DNA of 64,000 bases from Cystobasidium ongulense. Its lineage: Eukaryota > Basidiomycota > Cystobasidiomycetes > Cystobasidiales > Cystobasidiaceae. Shown here piece by piece: positions 2,890 through 31,667 of this stretch (positions within the stretch are counted from its first letter, which is position 1; the number at the start of each line of letters is the position of its first letter). The stretch is taken from positions 2,838,534-2,902,533 of the forward strand of contig BQUP01000002.1 of the NCBI GenBank assembly GCA_022835595.1, read 5' to 3'. Under the pieces are notes generated by a model that was not told the origin of the DNA, made no database searches, and saw only the letters and a list, made by a program, of their open reading frames with translations. Position numbers and translations under genes: made by a program.

Positions 2890-2968
2890 AGCGATCAGGC
2901 GTTCACAGAAGAACATTCTTTCATCAAACAGATGCAACAGCATAGTGAAAGGACGGATGGCCGAGCGG

Positions 2969-3026
2969 GTCCGTTTAATTCCATCTATCTGCTGTTGTTC
3001 ATCATCTGATCTTGTCTTCTCTTCAG
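2969..3026 (+). other. GT-AG intron 1 in tRNA-Leu D-loop (58 nt)
   Basis: It starts GTCCGT and ends with a pyrimidine tract TCTTCTCTTCAG. A branch-like TCTGAT lies about 20 nt before the end. Its length equals that of ordinary mRNA introns in this window. It falls directly after the conserved GG of the D-loop (G18G19). It has no resemblance to a tRNA-endonuclease intron. Confidence 0.75.
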
Positions 3027-3033
3027 TCTAAGG

Positions 3034-3090
3034 GTTAGCATCATTCGCCATATCTTCCGGGTTCAATTCCTGACAATCATATCTTCTCAG
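3034..3090 (+). other. GT-AG intron 2 in tRNA-Leu D-stem (57 nt)
   Basis: It starts GTTAGC, has a consensus CTGAC branch site (3070-3074) and ends ATCTTCTCAG. It splits the D stem between positions 24 and 25. It also carries GGTTCAATTCC (3060-3070), which resembles a Pol III B box. Confidence 0.75.
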
Positions 3091-3103
3091 CGCTAGACTA
3101 AGG

Positions 3104-3127
3104 ATAGTCACAACTTGACACTTGTCA
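3104..3127 (+). other. canonical tRNA intron (24 nt) at position 37/38
   Basis: It lies one base 3' of the AAG anticodon, the standard eukaryotic nuclear tRNA intron site. The intron contains CTT twice, able to pair with the anticodon as expected for the A-I helix. This is the type removed by the tRNA-splicing endonuclease. Confidence 0.85.
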
Positions 3128-3173
3128 ATCTAGTCCTCCGGGGCGTGGGTTCGAATCCCACTTCGTTCAAATC

Positions 3174-3177
3174 TTTT
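3174..3177 (+). terminator. Pol III terminator
   Basis: A run of four T residues starting five bases after the tRNA discriminator base. This is the minimal Pol III stop signal on the non-template strand. Confidence 0.6.
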
Positions 3178-29200: not shown

Positions 29201-31667
29201 TGACCTCACGACACAAGAACGTGATGAAGCCCTCGAGAAGACATCCATCAAAACTATATATGTACATGATGATGTTGCTCGATTATTCCAGAACAGCAAG
29301 CGCGCGAATGTGGAATTTGGCGAGCTTGCACAAGTAGCCCGGTACTGCCTCGGGCTAGCAAGATACGTACAGAGCCCTCTATGCGAATTTGCATCACTCG
29401 GACGGGATCTTGATGCCATCACCTATGATACTAATCAAAGATTGGTGAGCTCTGAACCCAGTCAGTCGGGGAGAGTGTTGTTGACCAGGCTGCCATCATA
29501 TTTAGGTCCCACGCCTGAAGCTGATGCAAGCATTGGAAAGTGCTTTGGTAAATGTAGTCAATCTTGTCGGAGTCGACATCAACAGGGCAATGCGGGATTC
29601 ATATTACGCGATTCTGCTCCCATACGTTGCAGGACTTGGGCCCCGCAAAGCTAGCGGGATGATTCAGCGAATTGCTTCAGCTGTGAGTTCATCTTGTCTA
29701 TGTTTCAGTATCGCTGTCACTAATCTGTATGGCAGAGCGAGGGAACCTTGGTTTGTCGGGCAGATCTTGTCAAGCGGAACATCTGCACATCCAGGATCTT
29801 CATGAACTGCGTGGCTTTTCTCAAAATTCCTGCGGAAGAGGATCCCGATGAAGAGTCCGAATACGACATCCTTGATAGCACACGTATTCATGTCGAAGAC
29901 TACCATATCGCCCGCAAGATGGCAGCCGATGCCGAGGAAATGGACGAAGAAGATCTCGAGGATCTTCCACATCCATCAGGCGCAGTGAAACAGCTCATGG
30001 AGAATGGAGCCGGAAAACTCGATGAGCTCAGTCTCGACGACTTCGCAACGGCCCTCTTCGAAACTCAGCATTTACGAAAGCGCTTGACCCTATACATGAT
30101 CCGCGACGAACTACAGAATCCGTATGCAGAGCGCAGGGCCGACTTTAGATTGCCTACCGATCCCGAAATCTTCACCATGTTGACAGGAGAAACCAGGCAG
30201 ACCCTCAATCTAGGCATGGTCATTCCCGTTAAGATTGTGCGAGTTCTAGCGGACGAACGCCGGATTTGCCGACTCGATTCGGGCATTGAGGGAATAGTAA
30301 AGCCAGACTTCCTAGAGCCAGGTGGTTCATATCAGGTGGAACAGACAGTGCAGGCCCAGGTCATCTCATTCAGTATGACTTTCAATCAGCCAACAATAGA
30401 GAAAGCAGATAGTATGTCAGTAGAGTTGTCAATGCTGAGGTCGAGCGTGACTGCAGATGAGTCAGACCGACGGAAGGTGATACCAGATCGCTACTATGAT
30501 GTCAATCAAGAGGAAATAGACAAGCAAGCTCTTGAAGCTAAGACCAAGCGTACAACTGGCCGTCAAAGGCGAGTTGTAAATCATCCAAATTTCCACAATT
30601 TCAACGCTGGACAGGCGGAGCAATACTTAGCGAACATGCAGCGTGGCGACTGTGTTGTCAGGCCCTCGTCTCGTGGTGTCGACCATTTAGCTGTCACGTG
30701 GAAAGTCGACGACGGTGTCTATCAACACATCGGTAAGCGAATTCCCTTGGACTAGTCCATGCTCTCCAATATTGATTACTAGTGTCTCGATACTATCACT
30801 TCCCGTAGATGTCCTCGAGCTTGACAAGCCAAACGAATACTCTCTAGGACGCAATCTGCGAATTCAGGGCAAATACACCTACTCCGATCTAGATGAGCTG
30901 ATTGTATCGCACGTGCGCTCAATGGCGCGCAAAGTAGATGAAATGATGCATTCGGACAAGTACAAGGGGTCGGAGGCCGATCTTCGTTAGTCTAGTTCAA
31001 GTTCGCTTGAAGGAGTTGTTTTTCCTTGCTGACTGTTCTGTCGCAGGCAAATGGCTTAATACTTCCATAATGGCCGAGCCCACACGGAGCTTCTACGGTT
31101 TCGCTCTCGATCCTCGAAAGCCAGGCAACTTCATTCTGTCCTTCTTGACCAAGGGTTACGAAATCCAAAATTGGGTAAGAAGATCGTTCATACCGATAGG
31201 GACAGGTCTTTTGAATATTGAGCATCGTAATTTTGCAGAGCGTTACTGTCGAACCGGAAGCGTTCGTTCTACAAGGTAACAGCGACCCGGTGCCAAATGT
31301 TACAATGCTATGTAATGCTTTCAAGGTATGCTGCGTAGTACCTACAAAAGCAAACATAGATTCACTGACTGTAGATTGCACCTGTCTTCAGTCAACCTAC
31401 GTTACCAAGATGGCACTCGCTGGCGGCAATGCTGCAGGTATGGCTGCTCGCACGCCTTATGTCGGCGGACGAACCCCGAATCCCTGTGGGTTACAAACAA
31501 TTTACATTGAACTTTAGCGAGCTGTTCTCGCTGACTATCCTGTTTTCTGAATAGACGCTGGCGGCATGACACCGTACGGCATGGCTGGCCTGCCTTCCAG
31601 ACCACCACAGAATGCAGGCTATGTTCACCCGTCGAGAATGCAACAAGCAGGGACCGGCCATAGGTGA
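26286..31667 (+). CDS. SPT6: transcription elongation factor SPT6
   Basis: A histone chaperone that travels with RNA polymerase II. Fourteen exons; introns at 26437-26508, 26587-26667, 26749-26814, 27147-27213, 28103-28176, 28477-28535, 29445-29505, 29683-29735, 30733-30808, 30986-31046, 31175-31238, 31327-31391 and 31496-31554. The acidic Asp/Glu/Ser and Lys-rich N-terminus is followed by the helix-turn-helix and death-like core, a YqgF-like segment ([14 protein letters not shown]), HhH ([15 protein letters not shown]), S1 and the tandem SH2 module ([38 protein letters not shown]). The C-terminus is Gly/Pro-rich ([19 protein letters not shown]). Convergent with the DUF4211 gene. About 1,500 residues, as expected. 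Confidence 0.93.

Follow-up and report, generated by a model that had tools for sequence, protein, structure and literature searches.

The tRNA-Leu(AAG) locus

The window analysed here, a stretch of 64,000 nt from the genome of Cystobasidium ongulense (C2:2838534-2902533), carries a tRNA-Leu(AAG) gene at positions 2951–3169 of its forward strand. Upstream of it lies an intronless protein gene on the same strand (1720–2889), which encodes 389 aa with no assigned function and has its stop codon 61 nt 5' of the tRNA gene. Four relatives of this protein were found, the best being 81% identical and the one from Cystobasidium minutum 34% identical, while no Pfam family was matched.

The tRNA gene is interrupted by three inserts of 58, 57 and 24 nt, the first two in its D arm, and removing all of them leaves a tRNA of 80 nt, just as the original prediction had described. 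The product has complete A and B boxes. The first exon (2951–2968) covers tRNA positions 1–19 and holds the 5' acceptor strand and the A box TGGCCGAGCGG, which agrees with the consensus at 9/9 positions in both the gene and the product. It is followed, at tRNA position 19/20, by a GT-AG insert of 58 nt (2969–3026) that starts with GTCCGT, has a branch-like CTGAT 17 nt from its end and ends in CTTCAG. The short second exon (TCTAAGG, 3027–3033) completes the D loop and contributes the greater part of the 3' D stem, and a second GT-AG insert of 57 nt (3034–3090) is located at position 24/25, starting with GTTAGC, with the branch motif CTGAC 17 nt from its end and TCTCAG at its 3' end. The GT-AG borders, the TTCAG and CTCAG ends and the single CTGAC previously claimed for these two inserts are all seen in the sequence, and the junctions of each can be set in two registers, GT-AG or GG-CA. 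When insert 1 is cut as GG/GTCC...CAG/TC (slashes mark splice junctions), the D arm becomes GGCCGAGCGGTCTAAGGCGC, the standard Leu form. The third exon (3091–3103) ends at position 37 and was read by hand, with the anticodon AAG at 3100–3102 and the arm CTAGA/TCTAG. A classical tRNA intron of 24 nt (3104–3127) lies at 37/38, and the last exon (3128–3169) provides position 38, the rest of the anticodon stem, the variable arm, the T arm and the 3' acceptor strand. The acceptor stem has 7 bp (GGACGGA/TTCGTTC), two G-U pairs included. The B box GGTTCGAATCC is located at 3148–3158 (pattern match at C2:2841681), and a Pol III-type terminator, TTTT, at 3174–3177, 4 nt downstream of the tRNA. All of these features are on the + strand.

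ARAGORN at default settings detected no tRNA in the whole window and gave nothing for the uncut gene, and a scan of the window against Rfam at E ≤ 5 gave no match to any family. Once both GT-AG inserts are removed, ARAGORN calls a tRNA with an intron of 24 nt (score 109.1). It shifts the register of the small intron, however, and therefore names the anticodon ATC, read as Asp(atc). When this intron is set at its canonical site, 37/38, where the third insert had been predicted to lie, the hand-read loop is CTAAGGA and the anticodon AAG. The minimum free energy fold of the 80-mer contains the acceptor stem, the anticodon stem and the T arm and lacks a textbook D arm, and its energy is unexceptional (z = -0.80; 39/200 shuffles are as stable or more).

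Split tRNA genes across the genome

Other tRNA genes that need GT-AG removal, as envisaged in the original prediction, were sought throughout the genome (19.77 Mb, 19 contigs). We were able to locate 17 such genes, the window gene included, representing 15 isoacceptors and split by 21 mRNA-type inserts. They were found via intact T arms, whether TTTT followed or not, so that inserts within the T arm lie outside the reach of the search; the surroundings were read for part of the T-arm matches, promising-looking ones among them, and one T-arm search covered 100 of its 122 places. Leucine is represented by three split genes, namely Leu(AAG) of the window, Leu(UAG) (L039) and Leu(UAA) (L098), and arginine by Arg(UCU) (L031, C2:2726705, - strand) and Arg(CCU) (L025). 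Two copies each were found for Ile(AAU) (L070 and L075) and Gly(GCC) (L101 and L102). The remaining genes are Lys(UUU) (L045), Cys(GCA) (L057), Asn(GUU) (L062), Ser(AGA) (L077), elongator Met (L026), Gln(UUG) (L092), Phe (L094) and Tyr (L095). Two GT-AG inserts each are present in the window Leu(AAG), the Tyr and both Ile genes, with a further intron at 37/38 in Leu(AAG) and Tyr.

Read by hand in standard numbering, the inserts occupy 11 distinct positions between 10/11 and 46/47, and none of the 21 is at 37/38. They are found at 10/11, 14/15 (three times), 15/16, 19/20 (twice), 20/21 (twice), 22/23, 24/25 (twice), 25/26, 26/27 (twice), 28/29 (four times) and 46/47 (twice). A B box is present in 17/17 genes, as the search design imposes, and TTTT follows the 3' end at a distance of no more than 13 nt in 15/17 and of 33 nt in both Gly genes. 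The A box matches at 9/9 positions in 17/17 products and is uncut in 12/17 genes. In the other five (L025, L031, L039, L077 and L095) it is cut by the intron, and 6–8 of the 9 positions remain; a 5' splice site that partly imitates the lost half of the A box may maintain the promoter in these genes. Precursors of the split genes would span 134–219 nt.

Products of excision

After excision ARAGORN reads 17/17 products as tRNAs, 15 of them with the hand-read anticodon. The exceptions are Leu(AAG) and Arg(CCU), for which a shifted register of the small intron leads to the names Asp(atc) and Ser(cga). Left uncut, the 15 genes that were submitted to ARAGORN gave nothing in eight cases and a tRNA with a different anticodon in seven. 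All 13 real single-insert genes have at least one GT..AG excision of 50–70 nt that gives a tRNA, whereas none of 1300 dinucleotide shuffles of these genes does (0/1300; 11026 excisions); the Arg(UCU) product counted here is a GT..AG one and differs from the GA-AG product favoured below. In a blind register test, with insert ends shifted by up to 12 nt, GT-AG was the pair of ends that most often gave an ARAGORN score no more than 1 point below the best, doing so for 15/21 inserts, against 7 for the next pair. The named product is unbeaten by nearby excisions in 9/21 cases; some other near-junction excision scores higher in the remaining 12, by way of one or two products in eight and of 11–111 in four (Asn, Gln and, twice, the second Ile intron). 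Chance is excluded by the genome-wide pattern of 17 genes and 21 inserts with common signals.

The duplicated genes were also compared with each other. The Ile pair is spread over two contigs and has identical exons (74/74) and a nearly identical intron 2 (63/65), while intron 1 has diverged (50/64) and the flanks are dissimilar (25/63 aligned positions on the 5' side, 23/41 on the 3' side). The diverged intron 1 retains GTAAGC, a CTTAC branch and AG. The two Gly genes agree in exons (71/71) and intron (62/63) and are similar in their flanks too (42/60 and 33/40), so that this pair tells little about selection.

Splicing signals of the inserts

In the register that yields a tRNA, 20/21 inserts have GT-AG ends. 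The exception, Arg(UCU), starts with GAAAGT, carries a CTAAC branch and ends in CTGCAG; its alternative GT register leads to a D loop of 12 nt, and a GA-AG intron, which applies if the D loop is normal, is favoured. G at +5 is found in 21/21 inserts (shuffle mean 2.1), a CTNAY branch motif in 21/21 (shuffle mean 9.7), with its A 7–23 nt from the intron end, a YAG 3' end in 21/21 (shuffle mean 12.9) and a G(T/A)NAG(T/C) start in 18/21, the GA start being counted (shuffle mean 0.35). None of 2000 composition-preserving shuffles attained any of these four observed counts, and the signals are not imposed by tRNA structure.

The inserts measure 57–66 nt, with a median of 62 nt. For comparison, 30 candidate mRNA introns were identified in the window (45–76 nt, median 61), about one fifth of which are possibly false, as the same scan gave 6 in controls of equal length. 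A looser scan (134 with signals, against 70 in two controls) had been too loose, and the stricter one was therefore adopted. The 5' sites of the candidates are mostly GTAAGT, GTAAGC or GTGAGT and their branches chiefly CTGAC, then CTGAT; an intron of 61 nt in the Spt6 gene (30986–31046, + strand), with GTTAGT, CTGAC and CAG, serves as an example. The tRNA introns are like these candidates in length and in branch type, and the agreement in length foreseen for the Leu(AAG) inserts extends to all 21. A difference concerns T at +3 (GTTAG), which is present in 8/18 non-redundant tRNA introns vs 2/30 mRNA candidates (Fisher p = 0.003), and in 3/4 introns of the U6 gene described next.

The U6 snRNA gene

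The U6 snRNA gene of the same genome (L108, C1:2353058-2353147, - strand) is split as well. It is the best Rfam U6 match, with 37.3 bits, below the cut-off of 44, and its pieces were recognised against the U6 consensus. Its layout is ...CACATAAAAT/GTTAGT...TACAG/TGGAACAATACAG/GTTAGC...TGCAG/AGAAG/GTTAGT...ATAG/ATTAGCATGGCCCCTGCACAAGGATGACAC..., with three clear GT-AG introns and a tentative one downstream, all of 60–70 nt. Two of them flank the AGAAG of the ACAGAGA region, the gene being cut at GGAACAATACAG/AGAAG/ATTAGC by introns that start with GTTAGC and GTTAGT. The weaker points are the third intron, which has no CTNAY motif, and the fourth, which has a weak 5' site (GTAGTC). Judged by its sequence, then, another Pol III RNA of this genome carries GT-AG introns, in the very heart of U6, a situation already reported for some yeasts.

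Unsplit tRNA genes

The Rfam tRNA model was searched against the genome, with scores for the best 63 of 554 candidates, and these include at least 32 matches, at least 24 of them above the cut-off. About 29 tRNA genes were seen without a GT-AG insert, part of which were checked in detail. Twenty-two are full-length Rfam matches above the cut-off (L002–L022 and L024), and the other seven are L023, L027, L028, L029, L047, L059 and a Gln copy at C9:333618. The names that ARAGORN gives among the unsplit genes include Lys, Met, Val, Thr, Asp, Ala, Pro, Gly, Leu, Gln, Glu and Ser. Three of its calls were rejected on reading. Ile(gat) for L021 was read as Ala, on account of G3-U70 and a T arm nearly that of L023; Cys(aca) for L018 was read as Arg(ACG); and SeC for L024 was read as Leu(CAA). 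The sole unsplit Met gene found (L004) has the initiator features A1-U72 and A54.

Among the best 63 of the 554 Rfam candidates and the T-arm matches that were read, there is no unsplit gene for Phe, Tyr, Cys, Asn, Ile, elongator Met or Gly(GCC). An intact tRNA-Leu(AAG) elsewhere in the genome was also sought, and none was found among those 63 candidates or with an A-box/D-arm pattern allowing up to 2 mismatches. The only genome match of this pattern is a tRNA that we read by hand as Leu(CAA) and that ARAGORN names SeC. For Trp, His, Thr(AGU), Ser(GCU), Val(AAC) and Pro(AGG) no gene, split or unsplit, is present in this incomplete inventory. Their T arms are possibly cut by an intron, or their B boxes divergent; perhaps these genes are more deeply split, or were missed by incomplete searches.

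A number of T-arm candidates were rejected as tRNAs on reading (L032, L034, L037, L048, L049, L061, L093, L096, L097, L099, L100, L103–L107, L110, L111 and L112–L114). Five others (L063, L068, L073, L088 and L090) had 4/5 T-stem pairs with no surrounding tRNA and were dropped, likewise those with fewer pairs. Locus L019 (C12:330124-330195) is tRNA-like, with the ARAGORN label '???' and an odd T loop. Opposite-strand tRNA pairs about 3–24 kb apart were also observed at C4:103975/127990, C4:1303576/1306601 and C9:330809/333618 (Gly, Ser-like and Gln).

Nature of the inserts

The inserts are very probably ordinary U2-type spliceosomal introns residing in nuclear tRNA genes of Pol III type, with the spliceosome maturing their precursors. 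Processing of Pol III tRNA precursors by the spliceosome, as had been suggested for the Leu(AAG) gene, is the favoured reading of these sequences, with spliceosomal signals in 21/21 inserts and a complete BHB helix in 0/21. Alternatively, the inserts could be tRNA introns of a non-canonical kind, with excision by the tRNA endonuclease and joining of the exons by tRNA ligase. Passages of PMC4090602 describe such systems in Cyanidioschyzon merolae, nucleomorphs and Crenarchaeota, where tRNA genes have two or three introns, some of them in the D arm or elsewhere outside 37/38, as here, and attribute the red-algal and nucleomorph introns at odd positions to the splicing endonuclease. The third Leu(AAG) insert, like inserts of several other genes, is moreover of the ordinary 37/38 type. 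The algal and archaeal introns are nevertheless of BHB or endonuclease type (3–24 nt in the Guillardia nucleomorph), whereas here the 4-bp central helix of the BHB is complete at none of the 21 inserts, and at least 3 pairs form at 4/21 (0.19), against 0.17 at shifted control sites. Excision by the endonuclease would also leave GT-AG, the G at +5 and the branch motifs unexplained, and we regard it as very unlikely. The classical eukaryotic 37/38 intron, found in many other tRNA genes of this genome besides Leu(AAG), differs from the GT-AG inserts, which are located elsewhere in the tRNA, are longer and carry different signals.

The split genes might instead be pseudogenes broken by insertion, with intact copies doing the work. 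PMC4090602 notes of eukaryotic nuclear tRNA genes with odd introns that most have many synonymous counterparts and are supposed to be pseudogenes; unsplit Lys, Leu, Gly, Gln and Ser genes do exist here, with other anticodons, and the tRNA inventory is incomplete. Against this stand the exons, which yield a tRNA in 17/17 genes, the splice signals kept in 21/21 inserts, and the Ile pair, whose exons are identical while intron 1 and the flanks diverge. Among the 63 scored Rfam candidates and the T-arm matches that were read, moreover, no unsplit copy was present for Phe, Tyr, Cys, Asn, Ile, elongator Met, Gly(GCC) or Leu(AAG), and that the split genes are pseudogenes is very unlikely. Self-splicing or mobile elements (group I/II remnants or introners) that leave by another route would be compatible with a certain resemblance among the inserts, since 24/276 pairs, U6 introns included, reach z > 3 against shuffles. 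Eight of these exceed z = 4, three of them from duplicated genes, and the best non-duplicate pairs, at z 4–5, are Leu(AAG) intron 2 with Phe, Ser with Phe and Leu(UAG) with Ser. To our knowledge, however, any group I or II ribozyme is far longer than the 57–66 nt of these inserts. Rfam gave no match in the window at E ≤ 5, and near-identical copies, as searched by BLAST in the window and the loci analysed, occur only between duplicated genes. Removal of such elements by another route is extremely unlikely.

Relation to known introns

Textbooks assign mRNA to the spliceosome and nuclear tRNA to an endonuclease and a ligase. Introns of mRNA type are nonetheless present in the U6 genes of Schizosaccharomyces pombe and other fungi, and several in that of Rhodosporidium dacryoidum, currently named Sakaguchia dacryoidea. 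The latter and Erythrobasidium hasegawianum are yeasts with introns in snRNA genes, and by taxonomy Sakaguchia dacryoidea, Erythrobasidium and Cystobasidium belong to one class, the Cystobasidiomycetes. In Rhodotorula hasegawae the U1 and U5 snRNA genes also contain spliceosomal introns. The fungal U6 introns resemble the tRNA inserts in being GT-AG, of similar length and in a short structured Pol III RNA. U6, however, is a component of the spliceosome, while tRNAs are not and have splicing enzymes of their own; being part of the spliceosome, and so an RNA that is near it, U6 is easily imagined as a target of reverse splicing. The introns of U3 snoRNA, of U1, U2 and U5 snRNA and of rDNA are likewise spliceosomal and in non-coding structured RNAs, but none of these hosts is a tRNA. 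Yeast U3 and the majority of snRNAs are made by Pol II and rRNA by Pol I, and we know of few precedents for the spliceosome splicing Pol III transcripts (U6).

A passage of PMC10484740 states that the fission yeast U6 intron is thought to derive from reverse splicing, and one of PMC5832005 that, of the small structured RNAs, frequent interruption was known for U3 and U6 only. The Rhodotorula hasegawae U2 intron and spliceosomal introns in ascomycete rDNA appear as titles cited in PMC2586383. Archaeal non-canonical tRNA introns are modelled in PMC8450103, with no word that begins with spliceosom, and an excerpt of PMC13149111 still classes tRNA splicing as spliceosome-independent in 2026. Our literature search, which covered titles and the openings of abstracts of papers other than preprints, few of them from subscription journals, gave no report of spliceosomal introns in tRNA genes. 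Spliceosome-dependent nuclear tRNAs would therefore represent a new combination with no precedent found, even though the introns themselves are of an ordinary type and U6 comes close to being a precedent.

Proposed maturation pathway and significance

We infer Pol III transcription, spliceosomal excision and the order of the steps from these sequences. The two promoter boxes, A and B, together with the T runs make transcription by Pol III likely, and it would give a long precursor of 134–219 nt. The spliceosome, recognising 5' sites similar to GTNAGY, branch points of the form CTNAY and ends in YAG, would excise the introns of 57–66 nt, and only then could the D and anticodon arms form. The tRNA endonuclease requires these arms, and because most GT-AG introns disrupt them, the spliceosome would act first and the endonuclease second, taking out the classical 37/38 intron where it is present. 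RNase P, tRNase Z and CCA addition would complete the tRNA. Gain of the introns by reverse splicing, the other possibility raised in the original prediction, is plausible, since Pol III RNAs, U6 among them, were struck; no direct sign of it was found, and near-identical insert copies in the window and the loci analysed are confined to the duplicated genes.

In this organism the spliceosome is probably an essential enzyme of tRNA maturation, as suggested by the large share of tRNA genes predicted to need it, among which are all the copies found for Phe, Tyr, Cys, Asn, Ile and elongator Met. Essential tRNAs seem to rely on the spliceosome acting on transcripts of Pol III, which have neither a cap nor a polyadenylated tail. 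The dependence of splicing on Pol II, the entry of introns into tRNA genes by reverse splicing and the way in which two splicing machines order their work on one RNA of 219 nt become testable. Since a standard tRNA finder (ARAGORN at default settings, in the window) misses such genes, the kind may be more widespread, unseen. If the reading is true, some tRNAs require two spliceosomal events and one endonuclease event, and as U6 requires similar splicing, translation and splicing would be interdependent via Pol III RNAs.
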